A stretch of 33,311 bases of DNA from Candidatus Nomurabacteria bacterium (GTDB lineage Bacteria; Patescibacteriota; Minisyncoccia; Phycocordibacterales; UBA9973): assembly GCA_943348755.1 (NCBI GenBank), contig CALQYS010000010.1:1-33311 (forward strand), in the 5' to 3' direction. Both the position numbers and the translations under genes were made by a program. A model generated the notes under the pieces. That model did not search any database, was not told the origin of the DNA, and saw only the letters and a list, made by a program, of their open reading frames with translations. Shown one piece after another: positions 6,687-25,604 of the stretch; the stretch's first letter is position 1, and every line of letters begins with the position of its first letter.

Positions 6687-6688
6687 CG

Positions 6689-6697
6689 TGCTAAAGT
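6689..6697 (+). promoter_or_regulatory. Extended -10 promoter of rplS
   Basis: TGC-TAAAGT ends 9 nt before the rplS ATG, directly after the long hairpin. At most a 2-3 nt leader is predicted. Confidence 0.4.
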
Positions 6698-6706
6698 GTT
6701 TTCACT

Positions 6707-7168
6707 ATGTCAGGGAACAAAGTTACAAATATAAAGTTCAGTCCGGTAAATATCGAAGCGCGCAAAAAGCTTAATTTTAAAGCTGGCGATACTGTCAACG
6801 TCTGGTCAAAGATTTTGGAAGAGAAAGTTGAAAAAAAGGGTGAGAAAAAGAAAGGGGACTCCAAAAAACCAGAAGCTAATAAATATCGACTTCAAGCTTT
6901 TGAAGGCATCGTTCTGGCTCGCAAACACGGCACAGAGATGGGGGCAACTTTTACAGTTCGTAGAATTGCTTCAGGCGTTGGTGTGGAAAGAATTTTCCCC
7001 CTATATTCTCCAATGGTAGATAAAATTGAGATAACTAAGAAATCTCGCGCTCGTCGATCAAAGCTTTATTACATCCGAAACAAAGCGGTGAAAGATGTTC
7101 GCAGTAAGATGCATTCAGTGACTGCTGTCCCTGAAGAAGAGGCCGTAGTCGAAGAAAAGACTGCATAG
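6707..7168 (+). CDS. rplS: 50S ribosomal protein L19
   Basis: A 153-residue L19, somewhat longer than the usual ~115. Family motifs are FKAGDTVNVW, LQAFEGIVLARKHG, FTVRRIASGVGVERIFPLYSP and RSKLYYIRN. A Lys/Glu-rich insertion of about 24 residues (EEKVEKKGEKKKGDSKKPEA) separates the first strand from the FEG motif, and the C-terminal tail is acidic. L19 lies at the 30S-50S interface. It is monocistronic and followed by tRNA-Leu. Confidence 0.95.
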   Translation: MSGNKVTNIKFSPVNIEARKKLNFKAGDTVNVWSKILEEKVEKKGEKKKGDSKKPEANKYRLQAFEGIVLARKHGTEMGATFTVRRIASGVGVERIFPLYSPMVDKIEITKKSRARRSKLYYIRNKAVKDVRSKMHSVTAVPEEEAVVEEKTA

Positions 7169-7171
7169 TTT

Positions 7172-7180
7172 TGGTATAAT
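7172..7180 (+). promoter_or_regulatory. Extended -10 promoter of tRNA-Leu
   Basis: TGG-TATAAT is a perfect extended -10, starting 3 nt after the rplS stop and ending 8 nt before the mature tRNA 5' end. Confidence 0.7.
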
Positions 7181-7188
7181 CTAAACAT

Positions 7189-7275
7189 GCGCGGGTGGCG
7201 AAACTGGTAGACGTACTACCTTGAGGTGGTAGCGCCCGCAAGGGCATGGAGGTTCAAATCCTCTCCCGCGCACCA
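7189..7275 (+). tRNA. tRNA-Leu (anticodon GAG)
   Basis: A class II tRNA: acceptor GCGCGGG/CCCGCGC, discriminator A, anticodon stem CTACC/GGTAG with loop TTGAGGT (anticodon GAG), a long variable arm, and T loop TTCAAAT. CCA is encoded (7273-7275), unlike the other four tRNAs in the window. Confidence 0.96.
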
Positions 7276-7284
7276 AAGTTATAG

Positions 7285-7307
7285 ACCCCAACAGGGGTTG
7301 CTTTTTT
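7285..7307 (+). terminator. Intrinsic terminator of tRNA-Leu
   Basis: acccc-aaca-ggggt stem followed by tgctttttt, 9 nt after the encoded CCA. Confidence 0.8.
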
Positions 7308-7316
7308 GTTAAAATA

Positions 7317-7325
7317 TGGTATACT
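7317..7325 (+). promoter_or_regulatory. Extended -10 promoter of a small transcript
   Basis: TGG-TATACT directly after the tRNA-Leu terminator. Transcription would begin near 7332, giving a ~35-nt leader to the ATG at 7367. Confidence 0.5.
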
Positions 7326-7366
7326 CATTGGCGAACGTTCAACTAACAATACAACAACTTTTTCTC

Positions 7367-7510
7367 ATGAAAACATCCAAACCACGGAGTGTTGCAGTTC
7401 TTTTCTACCTGTTTGAAAGACGTTACGCTCTGGAAATTCACCAGATCAAACGACTCCAAGCTGGTCGCCACAAGCCCCCTTTTGTTAAAAGGAAGAGGAG
7501 GCATCGGTAA
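7367..7510 (+). CDS. Possible 47-residue basic small protein
   Basis: The ORF starts at the ATG in the tttctcATGaaaac context rather than the upstream ATG of the ORF track, which overlaps the promoter. The product is very basic with a C-terminal KRKRRHR. No family is recognised. Support comes from the upstream promoter, a leader resembling that of the orphan gene at 12547 (ctaacaat-caacaa), and a strong downstream hairpin. It could instead be a non-coding RNA. The rest of 7276-7640 holds only the terminator, promoter and hairpin listed. Confidence 0.35.
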   Translation: MKTSKPRSVAVLFYLFERRYALEIHQIKRLQAGRHKPPFVKRKRRHR

Positions 7511-7515
7511 ATCGT

Positions 7516-7550
7516 CGCGCCGAGGAGACATGCACAGTCTCCTCGGCGCG
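7516..7550. terminator. Perfect 14-bp GC-rich hairpin
   Basis: cgcgccgaggagac and gtctcctcggcgcg close a 7-nt loop. No T-run follows on the plus strand, so termination would be non-canonical; a protein or recombinase site or a 3'-end stabiliser are alternatives. Confidence 0.5.
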
Positions 7551-7628
7551 AACTACTTTATGGCACCTTCTTTACCACATTTAAAACTTTTTCTTTAAAA
7601 TTAAACATAACTAAATCATCATAACATA

Positions 7629-7637
7629 TGATATACT
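7629..7637 (+). promoter_or_regulatory. Extended -10 promoter of the XRE regulator gene
   Basis: TGA-TATACT ends 10 nt before the ATG at 7648; the ORF-track TTG at 7642 would lie almost at the transcription start. Confidence 0.5.
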
Positions 7638-7647
7638 CCAATTGTTT

Positions 7648-7860
7648 ATGAAAGAATACATTATTAATAAAATCTACGAGTTGCGCATAGAAAAAGGAGT
7701 GACTCAAGAATCTCTAGCAGAAAAAGTAGGTGTAAGTCGTCAAACAATTATAGCGATCGAAAAAGGTAACTATACACCATCCATAAATCTATCACTAAGA
7801 CTTGCCCACTTTTTTGGTATGCCTGTAGAAAAAATATTTAAAATTTCTTATGAAAAATAA
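7648..7860 (+). CDS. XRE-family helix-turn-helix regulator
   Basis: A 70-residue single-domain DNA-binding protein. The HTH spans about residues 10-55, with the motif TQESLAEKVGVSRQTIIAIEKGNYTPS typical of small Cro/CI-like regulators of the YozG/YgzD type. It overlaps the following membrane-protein gene by 11 bp, so the two are translationally coupled. Small XRE plus DUF2178-like membrane protein is a recurrent pair in Gram-positive and CPR genomes; the signal it senses is unknown. It may control its own operon or the adjacent redox operon through the palindrome at 8232. Confidence 0.88.
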   Translation: MKEYIINKIYELRIEKGVTQESLAEKVGVSRQTIIAIEKGNYTPSINLSLRLAHFFGMPVEKIFKISYEK

Positions 7861-8212
7861 CATAAAAGAAATAATAGTTCCTCTCACTTTGGTCGTATTG
7901 GCAGTTTTACTTCTTAACCCTTTTCATTTTTGGATGCCGGACATGGCGGTGATGGGGATATTAGCCACACTTCTAGTTTTTTTTGGTGTATTTGCGAGCT
8001 TTATCCTTCGAGAAAAATCAATTGATGAACGTGATAATGTAAATCGTTCGCTTGCGGGGCGAAATGCATTTCTGGCTGGATCATCAATTCTCATGCTTGC
8101 TATTGTAGTACAAGGATATAAAGAAGCTATTGATCCATGGCTTGTGGTAGCCCTTATCGTAATGATCCTAGTAAAAATCAGTACTCGTATCTGGAGTGAT
8201 AAAAACTTATAA
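7850..8212 (+). CDS. Membrane protein partner of the XRE regulator (DUF2178-like)
   Basis: A 120-residue protein with about four hydrophobic segments (roughly residues 8-25, 29-50, 70-87 and 95-111) and a conserved-looking charged loop, REKSIDERDNVNRSLAGRNAF. The E-(R)-D-x2-N/R loop and topology match DUF2178-like partners of XRE regulators. Function is unknown. It overlaps the regulator gene by 11 bp. Confidence 0.7.
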   Translation: MKNNIKEIIVPLTLVVLAVLLLNPFHFWMPDMAVMGILATLLVFFGVFASFILREKSIDERDNVNRSLAGRNAFLAGSSILMLAIVVQGYKEAIDPWLVVALIVMILVKISTRIWSDKNL

Positions 8213-8231
8213 AAAGAGTTATCCACAGTAT

Positions 8232-8253
8232 AATGTAAAGTGTACTTTACATT
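8232..8253. promoter_or_regulatory. Perfect palindrome, probable operator of the redox operon
   Basis: aatgtaaagt-gt-actttacatt is a perfect 10-2-10 inverted repeat. Its right half contains the TTTACA -35 box of the promoter for the downstream operon, so a dimeric repressor bound here would block RNA polymerase. A T-run follows (gcttttt), so it could also serve as a terminator for the XRE unit. The XRE regulator next door is a candidate ligand (inference). Confidence 0.55.
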
Positions 8254-8274
8254 GCTTTTTCTGTTGTATATAAT
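8246..8274 (+). promoter_or_regulatory. Promoter of the thioredoxin-dipZ operon
   Basis: TTTACA (8246-8251), 17-nt spacer, TATAAT (8269-8274). The leader to the ATG at 8308 is about 27 nt and has no Shine-Dalgarno sequence. Confidence 0.65.
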
Positions 8275-8307
8275 TTTTACTATTAGTTATTAATTAATAT
8301 ATTTTTT

Positions 8308-8931
8308 ATGAAAAAAAATACAAGTATAGTTTTCGGCCTTATTGCGCTTATTGTCATGACAGGAGGAATTTATCCATTCATCAATAGTAGTAAAGTCTAT
8401 GCGTCAACAGATAGTAATAAAGATACGTTAATGCTTAAAAAACAAATGGAGGAAAAGGTTATGAAAGAAAAAAAGATGACCAAAGAAAAAGCAATGATGC
8501 AGAAAAAATTAATGGCAGAAAAAGAAAGAAAGATGAAAGCAAATACTCCAAAGACCAACCGCATGATGAAAAAAGATGAAACAAGTATGGTGAATAAAGG
8601 GGACACCATGATGAAGGCTGGCTCATACGAAACATATACACCCGAAAAGGTGTCGATGGCCTCTACTACTCACGATGTTGTATTGTTTTTCAGAGCAAGC
8701 TGGTGTCCGACATGTAGAGCAGTAGATTCAGATATTAAATCTAATCTATCAAAAATCCCTTCCAGCTTAACGATACTTGATGTAAATTACGACGATTCTA
8801 CTCTACTCAAACAGAAGTATGGCGTTACTTATCAGCATACATTTGTACAAGTAGATAAAGATGGAAACCTGATCAAGAAATGGTCTGGTAGCTCCACACT
8901 TGCTCTCATTGTTTCTGAAATTCAAAAATAA
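8308..8931 (+). CDS. Membrane-anchored thioredoxin-like protein with a Met/Lys-rich linker
   Basis: A 207-residue exported protein. A signal anchor covers about residues 7-26. A low-complexity Lys/Met/Glu stretch (about 45-105) holds many methionines, including MM pairs. A thioredoxin-like domain follows (about 118-207) with the active site WCPTC (C133, C136). It acts outside the membrane as a thiol-disulfide protein, probably reduced by DipZ, whose gene starts 3 nt downstream. The Met-rich linker could bind Cu(I) or be a flexible spacer; this is inference. The expected cis-Pro before the last strand is not evident (VTYQHTFVQVD), a departure from classical thioredoxins. Confidence 0.85.
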   Translation: MKKNTSIVFGLIALIVMTGGIYPFINSSKVYASTDSNKDTLMLKKQMEEKVMKEKKMTKEKAMMQKKLMAEKERKMKANTPKTNRMMKKDETSMVNKGDTMMKAGSYETYTPEKVSMASTTHDVVLFFRASWCPTCRAVDSDIKSNLSKIPSSLTILDVNYDDSTLLKQKYGVTYQHTFVQVDKDGNLIKKWSGSSTLALIVSEIQK

Positions 8932-8934
8932 AAT

Positions 8935-10695
8935 ATGACGCTTTTTATTATATCTTTCATTGCAGGTGTCCTTACAATTCTGGCTCCATGTATCTTGCCA
9001 CTTTTACCTGTTATCGTGGGACGATCTATTTCTGATACCACACTAAGTAAACGCAGGCTTTCCGCAATCGTTTTATCTTTAGGATTTTCAGTTTTTCTCT
9101 TTACATTACTCTTAAAGGCCACGACCCTATTTGTAAATATTCCGCAAGATTTTTGGAAATATTTATCTGGCGGGGTAATTTTCCTTTTTGGTCTAGTGAC
9201 TCTTTTTCCAAATCTCTGGGAAAGCCTCTCTTTTACTTCTAAAGTCAATCAAGAATCTAATAAAGTGTTAATGGGTGGATATCAAAGAAACAATATCTGG
9301 GGAGATATCATCGTTGGCGCGTCTCTTGGGCCTATTTTTTCTGCATGTAGCCCCACGTATTTTGTTATACTGGCTACAGTATTACCAGTCCGTCCAGCTC
9401 TAGGAATATTATATCTTCTTACCTATATTTTCGGATTGTGTTTAGCTCTCCTCCTCGTTTCGATTTTGGGTCAGAAGATTATGCAGAAATTAAATGTTGT
9501 TTCTGATTCTCATGGATGGTTTAAAAGGACCCTCGGGGTGATTTTCATTTTAGTCGCCATCGGGATACTTACCGGATATGACAAACAGTTACAAATTTCT
9601 CTTTTAGACGCTGGATTTTTTGATGTGACAAAAGTGGAACAAAATTTACTTGATAAAAATAAACAGCAAGAAAATAAGGCGACAGATATTAGCGTGCCTG
9701 AAATGCCCAAAAAAGAAGAATCACGGATTCCTAAAAATAATTTCTTAACTCTTGCACAGAAAAAAGAAAAATTTGTTCTTGCACCAGAGTTGAGTTCTAT
9801 AGATGGGTACATTAATACTAAAGGTCAGCCGATCACAATTTCTGAATTTAAAGGAAAAAAAGTTGTACTACTTGATATATGGACATATAGTTGTATAAAT
9901 TGTCGTAGAACCATCCCTTATCTCAACGAATGGTATAAAAAATATGAAGAAAAAGGCCTTGTCATTATTGGTCTTCATACGCCAGAATTTGCTTTTGAGA
10001 GAGTGCTCCAAAATGTTAAAGAAGCAGTTAAAGATCTTGGTATAAAATATCCCGTTGTCTTAGATAATGATTTTTCAACCTGGAATGCATACCAGAATCA
10101 ATTTTGGCCAAGGAAATATTTGATTGATATCGACGGATACATAGTTTACGATCATGCAGGAGAGGGGGACTATGCAGGGACTGAACTAGCTATCCAAAAA
10201 GTCCTAGATGAAAAAAATAGTCGTATTGGAGTGAAAGCCTCGATGGATGACAAAACAGTAAATCCAGCAGAAAAAATAATTGTTGATCCAAACAAGGTAA
10301 ACAGCCCAGAGATGTATTTTGGTTCTGCTCGAAATCAGTATTTGGCAAATGGTAATGTGGGAACTTCTAATACCCAGATGCTGAATGTGCCTACTAATCC
10401 AGTGCTCAATGCTCTTTATCTCAGTGGTACATGGTCTTTTAACCCAGAATATGCAGAAAATACAGGAGAGGCTTCGATTGTTCTTCGATATAATGCAAAA
10501 AATGTTTACATGGTCGCAAGCTCAAAAGATAGCATAGACCTGGAAGTCTATATAGATGGGAAATTTAGCCACATTGTTTCAATTAAAGGTGAGAAATTAT
10601 ATACGATAATCAAAGGTGAGGATTACGGGGAACACACTCTGATGTTAAAAATCAAAAATTCTGCTTTGAATGCTTTTACATTTACTTTCGGCTAA
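8935..10695 (+). CDS. dipZ: DipZ-like fusion: CcdA/DsbD membrane domain, TlpA-type thioredoxin and C-terminal beta domain
   Basis: A 586-residue protein. Residues about 1-220 form the CcdA-type transmembrane electron carrier with the paired cysteines in LAPCILPLLP (C19) and FSACSPTY. A linker of about 50 residues follows. The thioredoxin domain (about 285-430) has WTYSCINCRR (C320, C323) and GLHTPEFAFE, both typical of mycobacterial DipZ. The C-terminus (about 450-586) matches the carbohydrate-binding-like beta-sandwich found in DipZ. It should move reducing equivalents from cytosolic thioredoxin to extracytoplasmic thiols. Both neighbours are redox proteins. Confidence 0.9.
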   Translation: MTLFIISFIAGVLTILAPCILPLLPVIVGRSISDTTLSKRRLSAIVLSLGFSVFLFTLLLKATTLFVNIPQDFWKYLSGGVIFLFGLVTLFPNLWESLSFTSKVNQESNKVLMGGYQRNNIWGDIIVGASLGPIFSACSPTYFVILATVLPVRPALGILYLLTYIFGLCLALLLVSILGQKIMQKLNVVSDSHGWFKRTLGVIFILVAIGILTGYDKQLQISLLDAGFFDVTKVEQNLLDKNKQQENKATDISVPEMPKKEESRIPKNNFLTLAQKKEKFVLAPELSSIDGYINTKGQPITISEFKGKKVVLLDIWTYSCINCRRTIPYLNEWYKKYEEKGLVIIGLHTPEFAFERVLQNVKEAVKDLGIKYPVVLDNDFSTWNAYQNQFWPRKYLIDIDGYIVYDHAGEGDYAGTELAIQKVLDEKNSRIGVKASMDDKTVNPAEKIIVDPNKVNSPEMYFGSARNQYLANGNVGTSNTQMLNVPTNPVLNALYLSGTWSFNPEYAENTGEASIVLRYNAKNVYMVASSKDSIDLEVYIDGKFSHIVSIKGEKLYTIIKGEDYGEHTLMLKIKNSALNAFTFTFG

Positions 10696-10697
10696 GA

Positions 10698-10703
10698 TAT
10701 ACT
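10698..10703 (+). promoter_or_regulatory. -10 box of the VKOR gene
   Basis: TATACT, starting at the third base after the dipZ stop and ending 6 nt before the VKOR ATG; a leaderless transcript is predicted. VKOR may also be read through from dipZ. Confidence 0.45.
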
Positions 10704-10709
10704 CTCGAT

Positions 10710-11168
10710 ATGTTATTTTCGAATGAAATTTTAATGAGAATTATTATTGGTGTTTTGGCAGCGTGTGGTTTTTTCGTGGCTTCTCACATTTACAAACACA
10801 AAAAAGCTAAAAAGCCTCTTGTGTGTCCTGTGGGGTTTGATTGTAATTTTGTGGTACACAGTGACTATTCGGAATTCATGCATATACCGCTTGAACTCTT
10901 TGGGATGGGGTATTACGCTCTTCTTTCTCTATTTTATTTTCTTTCTCTATTTATTTTTGATGTTATGCCCATCAAGCTAGCCACTCTTGTGTTGTTGTCT
11001 TCTTTTGGCGCTTTTATCTTTTCCATATATCTTCTTGGTGTGCAAATTTTCGCACTAAAAAAAGGTTGTTCTTGGTGTATCGTATCGGCGGTTATTTCAA
11101 TTTTAATTTTTATCCTAACTGTACTTAACTACGACTTCGGTCATATTGCGCAGATTTTTTCCAAATAG
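10710..11168 (+). CDS. Vitamin K epoxide reductase (VKOR) family thiol oxidase
   Basis: A 152-residue four-helix membrane protein. It has both VKOR cysteine pairs: C39 and C45 in CPVGFDCNFVVHSDY, and the active-site CSWC (C120, C123). The GIPL-equivalent HIPLELFGMGYYALLSL follows the first pair as usual. Bacterial VKORs re-oxidise a DsbA-like partner and pass electrons to quinone. There is no fused thioredoxin domain, so the partner must be separate; the thioredoxin-like protein at 8308 is a candidate. The last codons lie inside the left arm of repeat element A. Confidence 0.9.
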   Translation: MLFSNEILMRIIIGVLAACGFFVASHIYKHKKAKKPLVCPVGFDCNFVVHSDYSEFMHIPLELFGMGYYALLSLFYFLSLFIFDVMPIKLATLVLLSSFGAFIFSIYLLGVQIFALKKGCSWCIVSAVISILIFILTVLNYDFGHIAQIFSK

Positions 11169-11270
11169 AAAATAATAAAGTTTTAGAGACTTGGGAGCGC
11201 GACGGCGCGAGCACGAGGAATTTTTTAGCAAAAAAATATCCGTGCTCTAAAACTTTATTATTTTCTATTT
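11163..11270 (+). repeat. Repeat element A: conserved core in a 26-bp perfect inverted repeat
   Basis: Arms 11163-11188 and 11245-11270 are a perfect 26-bp inverted repeat. They enclose a 56-nt core (11189-11244) that starts acttgggagcgcgacg and ends with a poly-T/poly-A hairpin and tatccgtg. The core reappears inverted at 23216-23272 (element B): 47 of 48 alignable positions are identical apart from an 8/9-nt variable centre, while the arms are unrelated. The left arm includes the VKOR stop codon. It may act as the terminator of the redox operon. Confidence 0.85.
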
Positions 11271-11276
11271 TTAGTG

Positions 11277-11282
11277 TATAAA
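11277..11282 (+). promoter_or_regulatory. -10 box of tRNA-His
   Basis: TATAAA preceded by TG, 11 nt before the tRNA 5' end and 6 nt after the right arm of element A. Confidence 0.45.
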
Positions 11283-11293
11283 TAACACCACAC

Positions 11294-11366
11294 GGTGCCT
11301 ATGGTGTAACGGTTAACACATGAGCTTGTGGAGCTCTTGATCTGGGTTCGATTCCCAGTAGGCACC
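11294..11366 (+). tRNA. tRNA-His (anticodon GUG)
   Basis: A G at -1 pairs with C73, the histidine identity element. The acceptor is GTGCCTA/TAGGCAC with G1-C72, the anticodon loop is TTGTGGA (anticodon GTG), and the T arm is CTGGG TTCGATT CCCAG. CCA is not encoded. The D arm is reduced (GTG/CAC). Confidence 0.93.
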
Positions 11367-11371
11367 CATAA

Positions 11372-11785
11372 TTAATCAAATTTCTTTTCTTCTGCCACCG
11401 GCTCTAGATGACTCTCCATATGATCTAACTTTTTTTCTAGTTTATTAAGGGTGTTTTGCAAGTTTCGAATTTGAGTTTCCTCCGTCTCTATCTCTTCCTC
11501 CTCCCTTTGGGCCAACCTCTTTTCACCGATGAGTCCAGAGATGATAAGTCGTTTCCCTATAAACTCGGAGACGAACACACCCGTCAAAAGGAGAATAATA
11601 GTTCCTATTACAAAAGATGTGACACTGTTCATTTTTAGATCGTCTGCTAAGTGCCATAGTCCGCGCCAAAACAACACCACCCCAGTACCTCCCACAAATG
11701 CATAAACAATGGGGTAATGGCTGAGCTTCCCACGTATTAAGTCTTCCAGTTTATCGAAAAATCTTACGATCTTTTTGATTATCAT
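11372..11785 (-). CDS. Membrane protein with C-terminal coiled coil, function unknown
   Basis: A 137-residue protein with an amphipathic basic N-terminus, two transmembrane helices (about residues 24-45 and 54-76), and a long Glu-rich cytoplasmic coiled coil (about 86-130) with heptad spacing (EIETEETQIRNLQNTLNKLEKKLDHMESHL). No family is recognised with confidence; such two-TM coiled-coil proteins are common in CPR genomes. It is divergent from tsaC. A minus-strand TATTAT (11794-11799) lies 8 nt before the ATG. Confidence 0.65.
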   Translation of the reverse strand: MIIKKIVRFFDKLEDLIRGKLSHYPIVYAFVGGTGVVLFWRGLWHLADDLKMNSVTSFVIGTIILLLTGVFVSEFIGKRLIISGLIGEKRLAQREEEEIETEETQIRNLQNTLNKLEKKLDHMESHLEPVAEEKKFD

Positions 11786-11793
11786 ATTGCTTA

Positions 11794-11814
11794 ATAATAC
11801 ACTAAGAGTAAGAT
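11794..11814. promoter_or_regulatory. Divergent -10 boxes between the coiled-coil gene and tsaC
   Basis: Minus-strand TATTAT (11794-11799) ends 8 nt before the minus-strand ATG. Plus-strand TAAGAT (11809-11814) ends 7 nt before the tsaC ATG. Both spacings fit leaderless transcripts, though TAAGAT is a weak match. Confidence 0.35.
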
Positions 11815-11821
11815 TATTTCC

Positions 11822-12385
11822 ATGGAGCAGAGTAATTTATGGAATAATAAGGGTATTATTGAAATACTCAATAATAATAAAGTAGTTGTGATGCCCACCG
11901 ATACCTTGTATGGCATTCTCGGGAAAGCGTTCTATACTTCAGTAGTTAATCGTATTTATGTTATACGAAAAAGAAGTCCAGAAAAGCCCTGCATAATATT
12001 GATTGGAAATCTTGGTGAACTTATAAAATTTTCGATTAATTTATCCAAAGAGCAAGAAAAAGAAATCAGAAAGTATACAGAGCCCACGAGTTTTGTTCTC
12101 GATTGCCCTGACGAAAAATTTACATACCTACATCGCGGAACCCAAACTCTGGCTTTTCGTCTACCTACACAAAAAGATTTACAAGATTTATTAAAACAAA
12201 CTGGGCCACTTATCGCACCCTCGGCAAACCCAGAAGGTCTCTCTCCAGCAAAAAATATTACCGAAGCCCAAAAATATTTCGGGAATGCAGTCGATCTATA
12301 TATAGATGGAGGGGAAATACAAGGAAAAGCATCAAAGATAATAAAGTTAAACAAAGATGGTTCAGTGGAGATATTACGAAATTAA
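11822..12385 (+). CDS. tsaC: Threonylcarbamoyl-AMP synthase, YrdC/Sua5 family
   Basis: A 187-residue single YrdC domain that makes threonylcarbamoyl-AMP from Thr, bicarbonate and ATP, the first step of t6A37 modification of ANN-decoding tRNAs. Signature segments are VVVMPTDTLYGILG (about residues 20-33), KRSPEKPCIILI (the KRPxxKPL-type motif), FRLPTQKDLQDLL and GPLIAPSANPEGLSPA. The C-terminal Sua5 domain is absent, so it is the short TsaC form. No TsaB, TsaD or TsaE gene lies in the window. Confidence 0.92.
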   Translation: MEQSNLWNNKGIIEILNNNKVVVMPTDTLYGILGKAFYTSVVNRIYVIRKRSPEKPCIILIGNLGELIKFSINLSKEQEKEIRKYTEPTSFVLDCPDEKFTYLHRGTQTLAFRLPTQKDLQDLLKQTGPLIAPSANPEGLSPAKNITEAQKYFGNAVDLYIDGGEIQGKASKIIKLNKDGSVEILRN

Positions 12386-12411
12386 CTTGTAATTGGTGTT
12401 TCATGTATAAT
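12382..12411 (+). promoter_or_regulatory. Promoter of the orphan gene at 12547
   Basis: TTAACT (12382-12387), 18-nt spacer, TATAAT (12406-12411). It overlaps the tsaC stop and also the ORF-track start at 12403, which argues against that start. The ~130-nt leader begins with a hairpin (gagttc/gaactc, 12423-12441) followed by ctaacaatcaacaa, shared with the leader of the small ORF at 7367. Confidence 0.5.
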
Positions 12412-12546
12412 GAGGTTGTAAAGAGTTCTTTCTGCGAACTCCAATCAGCTAACAATCAACAAAAGGCAACTTCCGTGCATAAATATCTTTTTTCTCGGAA
12501 TCGTCTAAAAGAACGAATTCCAGAATTCATCGGTGGTCAATTTCTC

Positions 12547-13002
12547 ATGAAGACTAAGCTCAAGAAAGAGGATGTCAAACGTCTCATGAGTAGAGGCATC
12601 AGTGAGAGTGAGACACAGTTTCTCCTGAACGCTCAAGCTGAGGAGAGGGATAGTATGGTACTTAGGGGTGAAATTCAAGCTCTTGAGATACCAGACATGA
12701 ATCGGAAGATCGTGGTCGTTCATTTCACGTGGCTCTGTGAGCGACATCTGTTCTTCGATGCTTCTGATCAGTTGGTGCCAAAATGGGTGCCTATTCCTTC
12801 TGCTCCACAGTGCCACAAACTTATCAATGTTCATTTCATAAGTTACTACTTTCCTAAGTGGGGGAAGAGACTGAAGATGTGGACTGCCTTGGGCGAGTAT
12901 TGTCGTTTTTACAAACTCGATGACGACGATAACTTGATGAGAAATGGTGATGAGTTCGTGCCAGCCGGCTTTATTGAACACAAGCCGATGCTTGAAAGCT
13001 AA
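12547..13002 (+). CDS. Orphan protein of unknown function
   Basis: A 151-residue soluble protein, not recognised. The start ATG sits in the context tttctcATGaagac, similar to the small ORF at 7367. An in-frame ORF extends up to 12403, but that start overlaps the -10 box. The protein has a charged helical N-terminus, then a compact Trp/His-rich region (HFTWLCERHLFFDASD, WVPIPSAPQ, YYFPKWGKRLKMW). Local GC is somewhat higher than in neighbours, with codons such as CTC, CGG and TGC more frequent, consistent with a different origin. It is monocistronic, with its own terminator. Confidence 0.55.
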   Translation: MKTKLKKEDVKRLMSRGISESETQFLLNAQAEERDSMVLRGEIQALEIPDMNRKIVVVHFTWLCERHLFFDASDQLVPKWVPIPSAPQCHKLINVHFISYYFPKWGKRLKMWTALGEYCRFYKLDDDDNLMRNGDEFVPAGFIEHKPMLES

Positions 13003-13034
13003 CTGTGGGTGCTTGTGATCTAACCCTCAAAAAC

Positions 13035-13074
13035 GCTTGCTTAACCACTTAAATGTGTCACGCAAGCTTTTTCA
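13035..13074 (+). terminator. Terminator of the orphan gene
   Basis: gcttgc (13035-13040) and gcaagc (13062-13067) close a 21-nt loop and are followed by tttttc. It lies about 32 nt after the stop codon. Confidence 0.6.
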
Positions 13075-13090
13075 TTTATGTTACTGTTTT

Positions 13091-13099
13091 TGCTATACT
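13091..13099 (+). promoter_or_regulatory. Extended -10 promoter of murB
   Basis: TGC-TATACT, 20 nt before the murB ATG; the leader would be about 13 nt and has no Shine-Dalgarno sequence. Confidence 0.55.
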
Positions 13100-13119
13100 G
13101 AAAATGACAGTGGAAAATT

Positions 13120-14136
13120 ATGAAAATACACAATAATTACAACCTATCTAAACTAAACACTTTTGGCATCTCTGTAAATGCTGAGTTTTTTATTGAGATA
13201 GAGAACGAGAATGAACTAAATGAGCTTTTAAGCACCTTGGAATTTAAAAATAATAAAAAATTATTTTTGGGAGGAGGTAGCAATGTGCTTTTTACCAAAG
13301 ATTTTGATGGGATGGTAATCTTAAATAAACTGAAGGGCATAGAAATTTTGACAGATGATGCTGAATCTATGGTCATCCGGTGTATGAGTGGAGAAATCTG
13401 GCATGACCTGGTTATTTTTACCGTCGAGCGGGGGTTGTGGGGCATAGAGAATCTTTCTCTTATTCCTGGCACTGTCGGTGCTGCGCCGATGCAGAACATC
13501 GGGGCATATGGAGCGGAACTTACGAACGTATTAGAAAATGTTGAAGCATTCGATATTAGCACAGGTGAGAAGAGGATTTTTAATACCGAAGAATGTAAAC
13601 TCGGGTATCGTGACAGTGTTTTTAAAAATAAATTAAAGGATAAATATTTTATTTCGGCTATCACCTTAAGATTAAGTAAAAAAATAAAAAAGAATCTTGC
13701 CTACAAGGCGCTGACTGAGTATTTAGCGAAGAATAAAATCGAAGTGAGCAATTCCAAAGATGTAAGCGATGCAGTAGCTGACATACGTAGGAGTAAATTG
13801 CCAGACCCGAAAGTCATCGGCAATGCTGGCAGCTTTTTTAAAAATGTATTTGTGGAAAAACCAGAATTAAAGAAGTTGCAAGAAAAATATCCGTTGATGC
13901 CTCATTTTGAAGAGGGTGGAGTGGTAAAGATTCCAGCTGGGTGGCTGATTGAGCAGTGCGGATGGAAGGGGAAAAGGGTGGGGAACGTGGGTGTACATGA
14001 CAGGCAAGCTCTAGTCTTGGTAAATCATGGAGGAGCCAAAGGCGGGGAAGTCTTAGATTTGGCTAATAAGATAATTGCTGATGTAAAGGAAAAATTTGGT
14101 CTGGAATTAGTTCCGGAAGTTAATTTAATCCGGTAG
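13120..14136 (+). CDS. murB: UDP-N-acetylenolpyruvoylglucosamine reductase
   Basis: A 338-residue FAD enzyme that reduces UDP-GlcNAc-enolpyruvate to UDP-MurNAc with NADPH, the second step of peptidoglycan precursor synthesis. FAD-binding segments are LGGGSNVLF (about residues 50-58) and IPGTVGAAPMQNIGAYG (about 115-131). YRDSVFK and GNAGSFFKNV follow, where the Ser in NAGSFF is the proton donor of the family. The length and YRDS-type segment fit the E. coli-like type I enzyme. It ends in the VPEVNLIR segment normal for the family and indicates a murein wall. Confidence 0.95.
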   Translation: MKIHNNYNLSKLNTFGISVNAEFFIEIENENELNELLSTLEFKNNKKLFLGGGSNVLFTKDFDGMVILNKLKGIEILTDDAESMVIRCMSGEIWHDLVIFTVERGLWGIENLSLIPGTVGAAPMQNIGAYGAELTNVLENVEAFDISTGEKRIFNTEECKLGYRDSVFKNKLKDKYFISAITLRLSKKIKKNLAYKALTEYLAKNKIEVSNSKDVSDAVADIRRSKLPDPKVIGNAGSFFKNVFVEKPELKKLQEKYPLMPHFEEGGVVKIPAGWLIEQCGWKGKRVGNVGVHDRQALVLVNHGGAKGGEVLDLANKIIADVKEKFGLELVPEVNLIR

Positions 14137-14168
14137 TGAGACTTTTACCAAAGCTCCACTACCGGATT
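14127..14168 (+). terminator. Hairpin at the murB 3' end
   Basis: aatccggtagtg and cactaccggatt form a perfect 12-bp stem that includes the last murB codons and stop. The 18-nt interior can pair further (gag-ctt/aag-ctc with a bulge). There is no strong U-run after it. Confidence 0.65.
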
Positions 14169-14188
14169 GATTTAAGGCGTTTTTGGTG

Positions 14189-14194
14189 TATAAT
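14189..14194 (+). promoter_or_regulatory. -10 box of the SIMPL gene
   Basis: Perfect TATAAT directly after TG, 37 nt before the ATG; no good -35 is seen. Confidence 0.45.
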
Positions 14195-14231
14195 TGGTAA
14201 ATAAATCTTAATAATTAACCAATAAAATTTT

Positions 14232-15056
14232 ATGGAAACACTAGAATCAAATAAGATAAAGATGTTTAAGGGTCTGTTTGTCTTGGTAGTTATTTTGTCG
14301 GTGTATTTCACTGTTAAAACTTTTGGAGATATAAGGGGAGGTCGTATGATGTGGGATCGCAACGATACTCCAGCCACCATCTCATTTTCTGGTCATGGAG
14401 AAGTTTCAGCTGTGCCAGATATAGCAAATGTTTATTTCAACATCAGTAAAGATGCAAAAACAATCAAAGAAGCTCAAGAAGCAGTGGCTGTAGTTGAGAA
14501 AAAGGCGCTTGATTTCTTGAAGACCAAAAGTGTAGATGAAAAAGATGTAAAGACAAACAATGCGTCTTTCTATCCTAAATATGATTATCAACAGAGAATT
14601 TGTCCTCCAGTTTCCGTAGGTGGTACTACTACTTTACCTTCTTATTACTGTGGTGGAGGCAAGCAAGTGCTTGTCGGCTATACATCGAGCGAGAGTATTA
14701 CTGTAAAGATCCGTAATACAGACGATGTCGGTGCTATCATGCAGGGTCTTGGTACTACAGGTGTCTCTGATTTGAGTGGTCCTAATTTTTCGATAGACAA
14801 GGAAGATTCTTTAAAAGCGGAAGCTAGAAAGAAGGCAATTGATGATGCGAAGGGAAAGGCGGAAGTCTTAGCAAGGGATCTTGGAGTTCGATTAGTAAAA
14901 ATTGTCAGTTTTGACGAGTCTGGCAGAGGCTATCCGATGATGTACGCAAAGGACTCGATGATGAACTCTGGTGCAGTTTCTGCTGCTCCCGCACAACTCC
15001 CAAAGGGTGAAAATACAATTAGCTCTGATGTGACGATAACTTACGAGATAAGGTAA
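14232..15056 (+). CDS. SIMPL-domain (DUF541) exported protein
   Basis: A 274-residue protein with one N-terminal transmembrane anchor (about residues 13-32) and an extracytoplasmic SIMPL/DUF541 domain. Typical elements are ISFSGHGEVSAVPDIANVYF at the start, the helix AQEAVAVVEKKALDFLK, VGYTSSESITVKIRNTDDVG in the middle and EARKKAIDDAKGKAEVLARDLGV near the end. The family includes the E. coli oxidative-stress protein YggE; its biochemical role is unsettled. Two cysteines (CPPVSV...YYCGG) could form a disulfide, fitting the window's oxidative-folding genes. The exported giant protein follows immediately. Confidence 0.85.
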   Translation: METLESNKIKMFKGLFVLVVILSVYFTVKTFGDIRGGRMMWDRNDTPATISFSGHGEVSAVPDIANVYFNISKDAKTIKEAQEAVAVVEKKALDFLKTKSVDEKDVKTNNASFYPKYDYQQRICPPVSVGGTTTLPSYYCGGGKQVLVGYTSSESITVKIRNTDDVGAIMQGLGTTGVSDLSGPNFSIDKEDSLKAEARKKAIDDAKGKAEVLARDLGVRLVKIVSFDESGRGYPMMYAKDSMMNSGAVSAAPAQLPKGENTISSDVTITYEIR

Positions 15057-19917: not shown

Positions 19918-20754
19918 ATGTTACTTAAAAAGAAAAGAACTTTAGTCATGGGGATACTAAATGTTACCCCAGACTCTTTTTCTGATGGCGGACTCTATTT
20001 TAAAAATACAGATAAAGCTTTCAAACAAACCCAGTTGATGCTAAAAGCTGGCGCAGACATCATTGATGTCGGCGGTGTTTCGACTCGGCCGGGGTCATTA
20101 CCTGTTAGCGTGGGTGAAGAGATGCGCAGAGTGCTGCCGGTGATTAAAAAAATTCGACAGAAATTTTCAAAAATAATTATATCCATCGATACCAACAAAT
20201 CTGAAGTTGCAGAAGCGGCAATTATGGCTGGAGCCAATATGGTGAACAGTTTAGGTGGTTTTAATTTTGATAAAAATTTAGCCAAGATTGTCGCGGACAA
20301 GAATGTTCCAGCGGTTATTTATCATATAAAAGGTGAGCCTAGGACCATGCAGTCTGGAGAAATAAAATATAAAAATGTGGTTTCCGAAATCAATAAATTT
20401 TTCCGAGAACAAATTACCATTGGAAAAAAGTTCGGTATCAGGAGAGAACAATTTATTCTCGATCCTGGCATAGGCTTTGGTAAATCAGTCGAGCACAATC
20501 TGACCATCATCAGAGAATTAAAGAAATTCACCAAATGGAATTTGCCCTTACTCATCGGTGTTTCCCGTAAAAGCCATTTAGGCAAAGTTTTACAAAGTAA
20601 ACTAAATTTACAAGAAGTCCCAAGTGACAAAGAAAGACTCGAAGCAGGCCTGGCTGAGACTGCTTTTGCTGTTTTGAATGGAGTAAATATTGTGCGGACT
20701 CATGACGTTCTCGAGACAAAAAAATTCCTTGCGGTATTAGATGAATTACGATAA
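19918..20754 (+). CDS. folP: Dihydropteroate synthase
   Basis: A 278-residue TIM barrel that condenses 6-hydroxymethyl-dihydropterin pyrophosphate with p-aminobenzoate. Signatures are MGILNVTPDSFSDGG (about 11-25), DVGGVSTRPG (about 51-60; the usual DVGGESTRPG has E to V), ISIDTNKSEV with the pterin-binding Asp, DPGIGFGK (about 187-194) and GVSRKSHLG with the catalytic Lys region. No FolK fusion. Its substrate pABA would have to be supplied; the next gene encodes a CADD-like protein, the chlamydial source of pABA. The gene ends 1 nt before the next ATG (20756). Confidence 0.95.
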   Translation: MLLKKKRTLVMGILNVTPDSFSDGGLYFKNTDKAFKQTQLMLKAGADIIDVGGVSTRPGSLPVSVGEEMRRVLPVIKKIRQKFSKIIISIDTNKSEVAEAAIMAGANMVNSLGGFNFDKNLAKIVADKNVPAVIYHIKGEPRTMQSGEIKYKNVVSEINKFFREQITIGKKFGIRREQFILDPGIGFGKSVEHNLTIIRELKKFTKWNLPLLIGVSRKSHLGKVLQSKLNLQEVPSDKERLEAGLAETAFAVLNGVNIVRTHDVLETKKFLAVLDELR

Positions 20755-20755
20755 T

Positions 20756-21439
20756 ATGACTTACATGAAACACCAAACATTTTTTAATCAGCTTTCAGAA
20801 GTAATAGAGAAGAAATCCATTCTCAATCATCCATTTTATAAGTGCTGGCAGGCAGGCAAACTCGAGAAGAGCGAATTACAGGAATACATGAAACAGTATT
20901 ACCATTTTGAGAATGCTTTCCCACGGTTCATGAGTGGAATTCATACAAATTGTGAAAATGCGGAAATGCGTAAAGTCATGTTGAAAGATTTAATCGGTGA
21001 AGAAGGCGAAGCCACGAATCATGTTGATCAACTCATCACTTTCTCCAGAGCCCTAGGTTTGTCAAAAGATGAAGTCATTAATTCCAAAGCGAATCAAAAT
21101 ACTGCTGATGCTATAAAAACATTTTTAGAATTGGCCCAGGACAAAAATATAAAAAAAGGTTTGGCAGCGCTTGCTACTTATAAAGAACAAATTAGAAAAG
21201 TAGCAGAGACCAAAGAACACGGACTCAAAGAATACTATGGAATTCAAAGCGATTACGCCCTTCAGTTTTTTAGGACTCATGCGAAGAAAAATGTGGCTTG
21301 GCACGAACTTTTAGATGAGATGATTTCAGAAAAAGAATATCCTGTTGCCCTTGGTGCTGTTAATTCTCTTTGTGATGCTTGGTGGCACTATCTAGACGGC
21401 GTCACGACTCCATCCATGAAAAAAAGGATGGTCTGTTAA
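20756..21439 (+). CDS. CADD-like (TenA/PqqC superfamily) putative pABA-forming folate protein
   Basis: About 227 residues of heme-oxygenase-like helical fold; numbering here follows the ORF track (start 20741; offset to C. trachomatis CADD is +6). It aligns without gaps to CADD as I recall it, a self-sacrificing enzyme making pABA from its own Tyr with Lys as amino donor. Y33 (Y27), Y49 (Y43), Y147 (Y141) and K158 (K152) are retained. Metal ligands E87, H94 and H180 are retained, but E142 is K148, D178 is N184 and H181 is W187; Y170 is F176. So the substrate residues persist while half the dimetal site is gone. Placed between folP and a CofE-like ligase. Start ATG 20756 or the overlapping 20741. 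Confidence 0.8.
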   Translation: MTYMKHQTFFNQLSEVIEKKSILNHPFYKCWQAGKLEKSELQEYMKQYYHFENAFPRFMSGIHTNCENAEMRKVMLKDLIGEEGEATNHVDQLITFSRALGLSKDEVINSKANQNTADAIKTFLELAQDKNIKKGLAALATYKEQIRKVAETKEHGLKEYYGIQSDYALQFFRTHAKKNVAWHELLDEMISEKEYPVALGAVNSLCDAWWHYLDGVTTPSMKKRMVC

Positions 21440-21445: not shown

Positions 21446-22168
21446 ATGCAGATTATTCCAATTAAAACTACGATATTCCGCGCCCACGGAGATTTGTTGG
21501 AATTTATCTTTAAATATATTAAAAAGCTTCCGGAAAAGTCTGTTTTGGTTGTGACTTCAAAAATTGTAGCGCTATCTGAGGGCCGAACAGCAGAGCCTGC
21601 AGGTGAAAAAGGAAAAATTAAACTCATAAAAAGAGAGAGCAGTTTTGCTCTAAAAACCAAGCACACTTGGTTAACCATCAAAGATGGCATGGTCATGGCC
21701 TCTGCTGGTATTGATGAATCAAATGCTGATGGGAAGATAATTTTACTTCCAAGAGATAGTTTCAAATCGGCTGAAACAATCCGTAGGGCTTTGTGTAAAA
21801 AATTTAGCATTAAAAATCTGGGTGTACTCATAACAGACAGCCGACTTTTTCCTTTGCGCGCTGGAGTGGTGGGGGTTGCACTTGGTTACGCGGGTTTCAA
21901 TGGTTTGCGGAACTATATAGGCCAAAAAGATATTTTTGGAAGAAAATTAAAAATGTCCAAAACGGACATAGCAGACAGTTTGGCAACGGGGGCTGTGCTC
22001 TGCATGGGCGAGGGAGAAGAGAAACAGCCACTTGCTGTGATAAAAGACGCTCCTGTCGTTTTTACTAAAAAAATTAATAGAAATGAACTTATCATTGACC
22101 CCACAAAAGACATTTACGCTCCACTTTTTGCCGATTTGAACAAGAATAAAAAAAATGTTAAAAGATAA
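21446..22168 (+). CDS. cofE: CofE-family gamma-glutamyl ligase, probable folate polyglutamylase (FolC2-like)
   Basis: A 240-residue member of the coenzyme F420:L-glutamate ligase family. Hallmarks are VLVVTSKIVALSEGR (about 34-48), SAGIDESNADGKIILLPRD (about 91-109), LGVLITDSRLFPLRAGVVGVALGYAGF (about 130-156) and the C-terminal IADSLATGAVLCMGEGEEKQPLAVI. No F420 genes are visible, and CPR bacteria are not expected to make F420. In Chlamydia the CofE homologue next to CADD replaces FolC as folylpolyglutamate synthase. The same position beside folP and CADD makes that role likely here. The next gene overlaps by 14 bp. Confidence 0.88.
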   Translation: MQIIPIKTTIFRAHGDLLEFIFKYIKKLPEKSVLVVTSKIVALSEGRTAEPAGEKGKIKLIKRESSFALKTKHTWLTIKDGMVMASAGIDESNADGKIILLPRDSFKSAETIRRALCKKFSIKNLGVLITDSRLFPLRAGVVGVALGYAGFNGLRNYIGQKDIFGRKLKMSKTDIADSLATGAVLCMGEGEEKQPLAVIKDAPVVFTKKINRNELIIDPTKDIYAPLFADLNKNKKNVKR

Positions 22169-23189
22169 GCCTCCCAAGAAAATACTTACTCCATATTTGA
22201 TCGAACTCATTACTAAATTAGCTCCAAAAGTCGGAGCGAGGGTTGTCATAGAACCACAGTGGGGGATAGCAGCGCAGATAATTTACAGAAATGGGGTAAT
22301 ACGTTCTGTTCGCATGTATTCCCTCGACTTAAACCATATTGCCTCTTCTGACATTGCTCGGGACAAAGATTATGCTAAATTTTTCATGAAAAAAAGAGGG
22401 TATCCAGTTGCAGAAGGCAAAACTGTGCTGGAAGATAATTGGGCCGACGCAGTAAAAAGTAATCAGCGAATTCCCTACGGAGTAAAGTATGCTAAGAAAC
22501 TAGGTTATCCGCTCATCGTCAAGCCAAACAGTAAAAGCCAAGGTTCGGGTGTGTGTCTTGTTCACAACAAGGCTGAATTAGTCATGGGCCTAAAGGAAAT
22601 ATTTAAATGGGATCGGGTGGCTATCATTGAGCGGTACTTGCCTGGACAAGATTATCGGATTGTTGTTTTAAATAAAGAAATTATTTCGGCTTATGAAAGA
22701 ATTCCACTATCTGTCACAGGAGACGGACGATGCTCAATACTTAAACTTCTAAAAGAAAAACAGCAATCTTTTATTAAATCCGGCAGGGATACTAAAATAA
22801 ATTTTAAAGATAGGAGAATTAAATTAAAATTAAAACATGCTGGATATAATCTGAATACTATTTTAGCAAAAGACGCAAAAGTTTATCTGCTTGATAATGC
22901 TAATTTATCTACCGGCGGGGACTCGATAGACGTGACTAACTTCATTCATCCCGGATTTCGTAAAATTGCTATAAATCTAACAAAAGATATGGGGCTTCGT
23001 ATGGCCGGCGTGGATATTATGGTTATAAAAGGGGATATCACTAAAAATCCAGAAGAATGTAATTATTACATTATAGAAATAAATGCTGCTCCGGGGCTGG
23101 ATCACTACGTCACTACAGGTAAAAAACAGAAGAAAATAGTTGAGGCAATGTATTTAAAAGTCTTGAAAGCGCTTGGCAAAAAAGACTGA
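22155..23189 (+). CDS. Stand-alone ATP-grasp ligase of the cyanophycin synthetase type
   Basis: A 344-residue protein. ATP-grasp elements are YPLIVKPNSKSQGSGVCLV (about 116-134), IIERYLPGQDYRIVVLN (about 157-173), the CphA hallmark LLDNANLSTGGDSIDVTNF (about 248-266), GVDIMVI and YYIIEINAAPGLDHY (about 306-320). It matches the central ATP-grasp domain of cyanophycin synthetase, but the Mur-ligase-like half of CphA is missing, so it is not a complete polymerase. It should form an amide bond between a carboxylate and an amine using ATP. The 14-bp overlap with the FolC2-like gene suggests a related substrate, perhaps a further amino acid tail on folate (inference). Confidence 0.85.
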   Translation: MLKDKPPKKILTPYLIELITKLAPKVGARVVIEPQWGIAAQIIYRNGVIRSVRMYSLDLNHIASSDIARDKDYAKFFMKKRGYPVAEGKTVLEDNWADAVKSNQRIPYGVKYAKKLGYPLIVKPNSKSQGSGVCLVHNKAELVMGLKEIFKWDRVAIIERYLPGQDYRIVVLNKEIISAYERIPLSVTGDGRCSILKLLKEKQQSFIKSGRDTKINFKDRRIKLKLKHAGYNLNTILAKDAKVYLLDNANLSTGGDSIDVTNFIHPGFRKIAINLTKDMGLRMAGVDIMVIKGDITKNPEECNYYIIEINAAPGLDHYVTTGKKQKKIVEAMYLKVLKALGKKD

Positions 23190-23832: not shown

Positions 23833-24162
23833 ATGTCCATAGATTTCAAAGAATTACAAAAAGAAATAATGAGGAATAGGAAAGAGAAAGGTTTTGCTAA
23901 TGACATTACCAACGACTTTTGTCGTGCATACGAAGAACTTTCTGAAGCATTTTCTCGATACAACAAGGGGCAAGATGGGGTAGCAGAAGAATTTGCTGAT
24001 GTGATCATCTTTCTTCTCGGTATGTCTTATAATCTGGGTTTCGATTTAGAAAAAGAGCTCGTAGCCAAAGTGGAAAAAAATAAAAAGAGAAAATACAGGA
24101 AAGAAAAGTCTCCTGGCGGTAAAGATATATTTATTCGTATCAAGACTCCTGAAGATCCTTAG
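23833..24162 (+). CDS. MazG-like nucleotide pyrophosphohydrolase
   Basis: A 109-residue all-alpha NTP pyrophosphatase of the MazG/dUTPase-like type. The metal-binding motif reads EELSEAF (about residues 33-39) followed by EEFADVIIFLLG (about 52-63), the EExxE...ExxD pattern. The C-terminus has KxxKRKYRK. Together with dCMP deaminase it could supply dCMP/dUMP by hydrolysing dCTP or dUTP, or clean up abnormal nucleotides; the substrate cannot be told from sequence. The ATG at 23833 is used, not the ORF-track TTG inside the previous gene. Its stop overlaps the convergent folA stop by 4 bp. Confidence 0.85.
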   Translation: MSIDFKELQKEIMRNRKEKGFANDITNDFCRAYEELSEAFSRYNKGQDGVAEEFADVIIFLLGMSYNLGFDLEKELVAKVEKNKKRKYRKEKSPGGKDIFIRIKTPEDP

Positions 24163-24644
24163 ACTTTTTCGTATATTTTGAACGTAAAATTGTAAGGGTG
24201 TTTTTCGTCTTTTGGATGAAACTTTTCAGAAATTATCTTCCATTCATTTATGTTAAACTCTGGGAAAAATGAATCTGCTGGGACTTCTGCTTCCACATGC
24301 GTCAGATACATTCGATTTAAATAAGGCAAAGCCAGTTTCAATATTTCGCCTCCACCAATAATAAAAACCTCTTTTTCTTTCTTACATTCTTTTATAGCAT
24401 CTTCTACACTATGCACTATGGTTGCATTAGGTATTTTGTAAGATTTGTCCCTTGTGATAATAATATTTTTCCGTTCCGGTAAAAGTTTGCCCATGGAGTC
24501 GTAAGTTTTACGTCCCATGATGACTGTATGTCCACGAGTTATATCTTTGAAGTTTTTTAAATCATCGGGTAAATGCCAAGGCAGTTTATTACCAAAACCC
24601 AGTCCTCTATTTTTACCAAAAGCTATGACGCAAGATAAAATCAT
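24159..24644 (-). CDS. folA: Dihydrofolate reductase
   Basis: A 161-residue DHFR of bacterial length that regenerates tetrahydrofolate with NADPH, needed because ThyA oxidises methylene-THF to DHF. Motifs are CVIAFGKNRGLGFGNKLPWHLPDDLKNFKDIT (catalytic Asp in PDD), TVIMGRKTYDSMG and VFIIGGGEI. It lies 6 nt downstream of thyA in the same operon and converges with the MazG-like gene, overlapping it by 4 bp. Confidence 0.96.
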   Translation of the reverse strand: MILSCVIAFGKNRGLGFGNKLPWHLPDDLKNFKDITRGHTVIMGRKTYDSMGKLLPERKNIIITRDKSYKIPNATIVHSVEDAIKECKKEKEVFIIGGGEILKLALPYLNRMYLTHVEAEVPADSFFPEFNINEWKIISEKFHPKDEKHPYNFTFKIYEKV

Positions 24645-24650: not shown

Positions 24651-25604
24651 TTATACGGCGATAGGTGCCTTGATGCCTTCGTGGGGGTTATAATCGACTA
24701 ATTCGAAGTCCTCTATGGTAAAGTCTTCAATTTTCATTTTCTTTGGATTTATTTTCATCTTTGGCAAGGGGCGGATATCATTTTTGCGGGATATTTGCAG
24801 TTTCGCTTGCTCTAAATGATTCGAATATAGATGCACATCTCCACCAGTCCAGACGAATTCTCCAACCTTGAGGCCGCAGATCTGCGCGATGATCATGGTG
24901 AACGTGGCGTATGAGGCGATATTGAAGGGGACCCCGAGGAATGTGTCACATGAACGTTGGTATAGCTGGCAGGAGAGCTTGCCGTCTGCTACATAAAATT
25001 GGAAGAAGCAGTGGCAGGGAGGCAGTCCGGCCTTTGCCATCTCTTCTATGTCAGCCACATTCCAAGCTGAGACTATGAGCCTTCTAGAGTCGGGGCTTTT
25101 TTTGATTTGTTCAATCACGTTTGCGAGCTGATCTATATGTTTATTATTTGGTGCTGGCCAGCTACGCCACTGATAGCCATAAATTGGTCCAAGATTGCCG
25201 TATTCTTTCGTAAATTTCTCATCTGTCTTTATTTTTTCCACAAACTCTTTTATTCCAGTATTCCATTCTTCTGATCCTGTTTTTGGAACTTCTTTTTTAT
25301 TCCTAATCAAATATGCCTTGTATGGCCATTCGTCCCAGATATGCACATTGTTGTCTGCTAGATATTTCAAATTTGTATCTCCGCGCATAAACCATAAAAG
25401 TTCATGGATAATGGATTTGATCGGTACTTTCTTGGTGGTGAGGAGAGGGAAGCCGTCCTCTAGATTAAAGCGCATTTGATAGCCGAGCAGGCTCTTAGTA
25501 CCCGTACCCGTGCGGTCAGTTTTCGTGGCACCATTTTTCATGATGTGCTCAAGGAGGTCCAAGTATGATTCATCTACATGTTTACCAATAAGTTTATTCT
25601 GCAT
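24651..25604 (-). CDS. thyA: Thymidylate synthase
   Basis: A 317-residue classical ThyA that methylates dUMP to dTMP using 5,10-methylene-THF. The catalytic Cys is in [12 protein letters not shown], and other conserved parts are [48 protein letters not shown] and [13 protein letters not shown] moderate insertion (about residues 105-125) is present, within normal variation. It is the first gene of a thyA-folA operon with a perfect TATAAT 6 nt before the ATG. Confidence 0.97.

Follow-up and report, generated by a model that had tools for sequence, protein, structure and literature searches.

The 33,311-nucleotide stretch of Candidatus Nomurabacteria DNA analysed here as a whole (hereafter, the window) encodes a homologue of CADD, the pABA synthase of Chlamydia trachomatis, that retains the residues sacrificed by that enzyme and one half of its dimetal site, but not the other half. 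Comparison of the sequences from five genomes confirmed that the loss of one metal half-site is a real property of a clade and not an error. The first-pass annotation had offered two alternatives, a different or mononuclear metal site, or loss of the oxygenase reaction with another role. We tentatively favor the view that the protein is a pABA synthase serving folate synthesis with a one-metal site, because it keeps a two-His/one-Glu set of the FlcD type, shows no variation at the residues essential for pABA formation and occurs in the same genomes as folP. The two-metal nature of the C. trachomatis enzyme (CtCADD) and of NePabS from Nitrosomonas europaea, the W92L change, the presence of Lys in place of the bridging Glu, the folK gap, the presence of TrpE and the existence of folP-bearing genomes of the same order without CADD all count against this view. 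The retention of the sacrificed residues and of the Fe half-site, with the other half dropped, is an unusual pattern; the mechanism set out below is a proposal.

The open frame of the CADD homologue (20741–21439, forward strand, 232 aa) has three in-frame ATG codons, at positions 20741, 20756 and 20765. All four relatives have a start equivalent to 20765 (MKxxxLF), and three of them (L002, L003 and L005) have no upstream in-frame Met before it, making 20765 the likely start codon. Residue numbers are nevertheless those of protein P0001, which starts at 20756, and, as far as the deletion described below, exceed those of CtCADD by one. The first-pass annotation had recognized a CADD homologue at 20756–21439 with, in ORF-track numbering, an offset of +6 to CtCADD; alignment yielded the same offset, and the homology was borne out by both sequence and model. 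The match to the CADD family profile TIGR04305 covered positions 1–211 of 212 (194 bits, E 2e-57; curated cutoff 200), and the scores of two relatives also lay slightly below the cutoff (L007, 194; L005, 198). With phmmer, the protein matched CtCADD (1RCW, E 8e-34; 8VA9, E 3e-33) and chain 9PJ4, deposited as 4-aminobenzoate synthase (E 5e-29). We took this chain for NePabS, as the NePabS peptides printed in PMC11965152 occur in it with one difference. Identification as PqqC (TIGR02111, 43 bits against a cutoff of 240) or TenA (TIGR04306, 28 bits against a cutoff of 130) was rejected. The best PDB match of an AF2 model built from a 14-sequence alignment (mean pLDDT 93.9, pTM 0.89) was CtCADD (8va9/1rcw; TM 0.87 by query and 0.92–0.93 by target, rmsd 1.7–1.8 Å), and the predicted structure thus has the CADD fold. 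As the six-ligand site of three His and three carboxylate residues is not found in the window protein (E142 is Lys, D178 is Asn, and H181 is deleted or Trp), we class this protein by its descent as a CADD family variant, rather than as a dimetal pABA synthase. No second, intact CADD was found elsewhere in the window's genome. Searches for relatives in phages and plasmids matched only distant PqqC or iron-redox proteins, a search of viral contigs for CADD relatives yielded none, and a literature search worded for CADD in CPR/Patescibacteria found no paper.

Coordinates of the CADD homologue, its key residues and the neighboring genes in the window (residue numbering from 20756; second residue names are those of CtCADD unless stated otherwise).
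Feature	Position	Strand	Evidence or remark
folP, dihydropteroate synthase, directly upstream of CADD	19918..20754	+	TIGR01496 294 bits, cutoff 163
K-form CADD homologue	20765..21439	+	224 aa from conserved start 20765; TIGR04305, 1rcw phmmer match, AF2
Tyr28 = Tyr27, sacrificed tyrosine	20837..20839	+	alignment, invariant; role PMC11965152
Tyr44 = Tyr43 / NePabS Tyr41, essential	20885..20887	+	alignment, invariant; role PMC11965152
Glu82 = Glu81, site-1 ligand position, kept	20999..21001	+	alignment
His89 = His88, site-1 ligand position, kept	21020..21022	+	alignment
Leu93 at Trp92 position (NePabS Trp99)	21032..21034	+	Trp in 9/9 canonical CADDs; W99 role PMC11965152
Lys143, replacing metal ligand Glu142	21182..21184	+	alignment; clade-invariant
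Lys153 = Lys152, sacrificed amine donor	21212..21214	+	alignment, invariant; role PMC11965152
His175 = His174, site-1 ligand position, kept	21278..21280	+	alignment
Asn179, replacing ligand Asp178 (Asp in L005)	21290..21292	+	alignment
4-residue deletion between Val180 and Ala181, removing the His181 turn	21293..21298	+	alignments, AF2
His183 (ORF-track H188), clade-specific and invariant; possible new ligand	21302..21304	+	alignment
CofE-like folate gamma-glutamate ligase (relative of Chlamydia CT611)	21446..22168	+	TIGR04132 218 bits, cutoff 350; PMC1971073
ATP-grasp ligase (cyanophycin synthetase-like)	22155..23189	+	profile search
Dihydrofolate reductase	24159..24644	-	PF00186 206 bits
Thymidylate synthase ThyA	24651..25604	-	PF00303 399 bits

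The window protein and its four close relatives (hereafter, the K-form) were compared with a canonical set of nine sequences: CtCADD, NePabS and seven CPR proteins (L008, L009, L023, L024 and L047–L049). E82, H89 and H175, corresponding to the site-1 E-H...H triad, are invariant in the K-form. Lys stands in place of Glu142 and there is no His181 in all five K-form proteins, and Asn replaces Asp178 in four of them; Glu142 and His181 are present in 9/9 canonical sequences. The first-pass annotation had read E142 as Lys and D178 as Asn, and had concluded that half the dimetal site was lost; both statements hold, the site-2 ligands being changed or absent and site 1 being kept. The alignment of CPR CADD homologues that it had suggested as a check showed the pattern to recur throughout the five-genome clade and to be absent from the nine canonical sequences. 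Further residues shared by all five K-form proteins but by none of the canonical sequences include L93 (Trp in 9/9 canonical proteins), M45 (canonical Ala), E154, directly after the sacrificed Lys, and H183. The K-form proteins also all lack a Pro that the nine canonical proteins have four positions beyond E142 (YESQIP in CtCADD).

His181 had initially been described as replaced by Trp; its absence was confirmed, but its substitution was not. In the phmmer alignment, W182 falls on H181 and is followed by a 3-residue gap, whereas two tool alignments and one MAFFT localpair alignment place a 4-residue gap just before A181-W182. With the 4-residue gap, W182 corresponds to a Trp already found in most canonical CPR CADDs (AWWEII), and His183 takes the place of the second Trp of this motif. 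H181 is absent under either gap placement. In the AF2 model of the window protein, alpha-3 spans residues 166–176 and 181–189, with a loop at 177–180, such that the core helix is broken; in the model of the canonical CPR CADD L047, obtained with a similar alignment, alpha-3 is a single helix (161–188). Given the agreement of three alignments with the predicted helix break, deletion of the H181 turn is more likely than the plain substitution H181W, which is disfavored.

The His one residue further on, already noted in the first-pass annotation, is indeed restricted to the clade, the canonical residue at this position being Trp, Ala or Lys. Together with nearby acids (Glu83, Asp187) or Asn179, it might contribute to a dimetal site rebuilt with new ligands, the helix having been re-registered by the one-turn deletion. 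The invariance and clade specificity of His183, the position of Asp187 one turn on and the rough preservation of the helical face by a 4-residue deletion are consistent with such a site. We nonetheless consider it improbable: the AF2 model has a loop, rather than a continued helix, between H175 and H183, Lys143 would disfavor a second cation in the site, and acids of the Asp187 type are common in canonical CPR CADDs too, so Asp187 is not new. For the preferred one-metal pABA synthase, we infer that metal is bound, that O2 is activated at a single metal and that pABA is produced, as follows. Site 1 (E82, H89 and H175; two His, one Glu) would hold a single Fe, as in FlcD. Site 2, the one-His site at which Mn is thought to sit in CtCADD, would have been dismantled by the presence of Lys143 at the Glu142 position and deletion of the His181 turn, with Lys143 filling the place of the second metal. 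The K-form would then make pABA by spending its own equivalents of Tyr27 and Lys152.

As first listed from the window sequence alone, Y27, Y43, Y141, K152, E81, H88 and H174 are conserved, and they are kept in 5/5 K-form proteins. Only 37% of the columns are invariant in this clade, and the retention of all seven key residues has a hypergeometric P of ~8e-4, a rough value that ignores relatedness and general active-site conservation. Tyr25, Tyr41 and Lys159 are essential in NePabS, in which Tyr45 and Trp99 may help in radical transfer and the loss of Trp99 lowers activity (PMC11965152). The K-form retains the equivalents of the first three and of Tyr45 (Y28, Y44, K153 and Y48), and has lost that of Trp99, W92L being found in the whole clade. 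The replacement of Y170 by Phe, also reported in the first-pass annotation, is present (F171), but was rejected as a functional loss because NePabS naturally has Phe at this position (PMC11965152).

The four relatives displayed 75% (L007, from a Magasanikbacteria MAG), 65% (L003), 62% (L002) and 52% (L005) identity to the window protein. The five proteins formed a single clade with maximal support (100/100), and their five genomes span at least two families. The canonical proteins L008, L009 and L047–L049 formed their own supported clade (99/99); L047–L049 and the K-form protein L007 come from the same genome family, indicating that both forms exist side by side. In K-form comparisons, pN was 0.16–0.33 versus 0.77–0.91 for pS, which was saturated, so no dN/dS figure is given; K-form CADD is under strong purifying selection. 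Several normally invariant residues have been lost, as might be expected of a decaying or mis-sequenced CADD gene, but the probability of such an explanation is negligible and it is refuted by conservation across the clade, with the same changes in five genomes from at least two families, monophyly at 100/100 and strong purifying selection. Likewise, a sequencing or frameshift error, a possibility that the first-pass annotation had kept in view, was rejected because five genomes share both K142 and the deletion. The placement of the K-form clade relative to CtCADD, NePabS and L023 had no supported order. Loss from a canonical CADD is the simpler reading of its ancestry, since the six ligands are common to the wider HDO superfamily, although the tree alone does not show this. 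In a separate CADD-like group, L010–L015 (family f163), four residues are deleted between the E81 and H88 positions (EExEH), ALE or AME replaces AYE at positions 141–142, and the HLxEExH motif is shifted. The branch of this group is long (2.77 changes per column) and has full support; the group is a second remodeled CADD variant and seems to keep six candidate ligands.

The early observation that the CADD gene lies beside folP was correct. The gene order in the window is folP, CADD, CofE-like ligase, ATP-grasp, dCMP deaminase and MazG-like, with the genes for dihydrofolate reductase and ThyA on the other strand; the order at L031 (the G016 locus) is similar, without ATP-grasp. folP and CADD are adjacent in the window, L007 and L031. 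The Chlamydia gene CT610 lies in a cluster with folate genes, and an E. coli folC mutant can be complemented by CT611, a CofE homologue (PMC1971073). Within the window's family, folP was found in 3 of 146 genomes and CADD in the same three, a coincidence with a chance of 1 in about 508,000 (~2e-6) if genomes are independent; this naive figure is overstated, the genomes being related. A fourth genome, G030, yielded only a weak match (17.6 bits), to a different type of protein. In the order sample, folP was present in both K-form carriers and in three genomes without CADD; overall, it was present in 5/5 K-form carriers. This neighborhood and co-occurrence provide a genetic link between the window CADD and folate synthesis. 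In G386, from the same genus as G409, folP, the CofE-like ligase and ATP-grasp lie together without CADD (L063, 5688–8866). In G556, which also has a canonical CADD, a PabC/branched-chain aminotransferase-like part (residues ~95–218) is fused to dihydropteroate synthase (residues ~240–490) within a single open frame (L069, 3687–5165). Elsewhere in the window (8935–11168), a CcdA/DipZ-like membrane protein with thioredoxin-like domains precedes a member of the VKOR family, an arrangement suggestive of a thiol system or of oxidative protein folding.

The folate pathway of the K-form carriers is not clearly complete, because searches for folK (HPPK) found it in only two of the five, and not in G000 (the window's genome), G016 or G1241. 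The HPPK step may be missing or replaced in these three genomes. The genomes of L047–L049 have the gene order CADD-folP-folK. A chorismate-binding enzyme was not detected in 4/5 K-form carriers; the window's genome has one, TrpE, encoded beside a shikimate operon. This run (L038, contig C1 of G000, 6654–14838) comprises trpE, an aroA-aroK fusion, an aroQ-aroE fusion, DAHP synthase, aroB and aroC, with trpE, DAHP synthase and aroC assigned by profile and the others by eye. With this operon and TrpE, the window's genome could have another pABA route. Change of function is a serious rival, if on balance an unlikely one: the self-sacrificing reaction would have been lost in favor of another role in folate metabolism, such as a different oxygenation or the binding or carrying of pABA or a pterin, with Tyr27 and Lys152 kept for pocket structure. 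Besides TrpE with the shikimate operon and the three carriers in which folK was not found, the disappearance of the site-2 ligands, of the otherwise invariant Trp92 and of the Pro after E142, and the predicted break in helix alpha-3, are compatible with such a change. Conversely, none of the five proteins has changed the sacrificed Tyr or Lys, the essential Tyr43 or any member of the site-1 triad, the context points to no specific other reaction, and four carriers have no other pABA source visible in the chorismate-binding test.

The K-form bears on how the CADD radical is initiated and on why CtCADD needs Mn beside Fe. A 2026 review of HDOs considers that alternative radical-transfer starts for pABA synthesis may exist (PMC13108848). 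The K-form provides a natural test: production of pABA would mean that a single metal suffices, and failure to produce it would make the second metal the probable requirement of the chemistry. Should the one-metal pABA synthase prove correct, it would hint at how some ultra-small bacteria without pabABC obtain pABA, and would add a second predicted mononuclear site to a superfamily in which, according to the authors of the FlcD study, the FlcD motif is strongly predicted in only 1 of 150 groups.

Among known systems, CADD of C. trachomatis (CT610; 1RCW, 8VA9) shares with the window protein its fold, family, Tyr27, Tyr43, Tyr141 and Lys152, Glu81, His88 and His174, and a folate gene neighborhood with a CT611-like ligase. 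It differs at Glu142, Asp178, His181, Trp92 (by alignment) and Tyr170, for which the window protein has Lys, Asn, a deletion, Leu and Phe, respectively. NePabS has the Tyr25, Tyr41 and Lys159 equivalents and the Phe at the Tyr170 position in common with the window protein but, unlike it, has all six metal ligands and Trp99. Both these enzymes are reported to be two-metal enzymes; according to the HDO review, the two-His site (site 1) of CtCADD probably carries Fe and the one-His site (site 2) probably Mn (PMC13108848). The canonical CPR CADDs (L008, L009, L023, L024 and L047–L049) belong to the same family and, unlike the K-form, have the full E-H-E-H-D-H ligand set.

A metal-ligand Glu has also given way to Lys in the class Ie ribonucleotide reductase R2, a radical enzyme that is otherwise conserved; R2e has lost three metal-binding Glu residues (VPK/QSK, with Lys in place of one of them) and remains functional metal-free (PMC11846895). 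By analogy, the K-form might work without metal, the charge of Lys143 standing in for that of the metal, and PqqC, of the same fold as CADD, is metal-free (PMC11363339). We regard this as highly improbable, however, because the full invariant two-His/one-Glu triad argues for a metal. R2e, with its ferritin-like fold, three replaced Glu residues and no bound metal, shares only the Lys-for-Glu change with the K-form and, as the K-form keeps the full triad, is the weaker parallel. The closer comparison for the proposed one-metal site is with FlcD, an HDO of the fluopsin C pathway in which the last two ligands are replaced and one Fe is bound via E181, H191 and H274 (PMC11363339). By motif order, these residues correspond to E81, H88 and H174 of CADD, the same three that are kept in the K-form. 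FlcD thus resembles the K-form in keeping the site-1 E-H...H set and losing the last two alpha-3 ligands, and its site 2 is closed by a basic residue, Arg281. FlcD acts on a small-molecule oxime and is distant (15–16% identity; ranks 40–41 in the Foldseek list). As FlcD retains the bridging Glu, which is the partner of Arg281 and essential in that enzyme, whereas the window protein has Lys143, the comparison concerns how the K-form may work, rather than membership of the FlcD subgroup.
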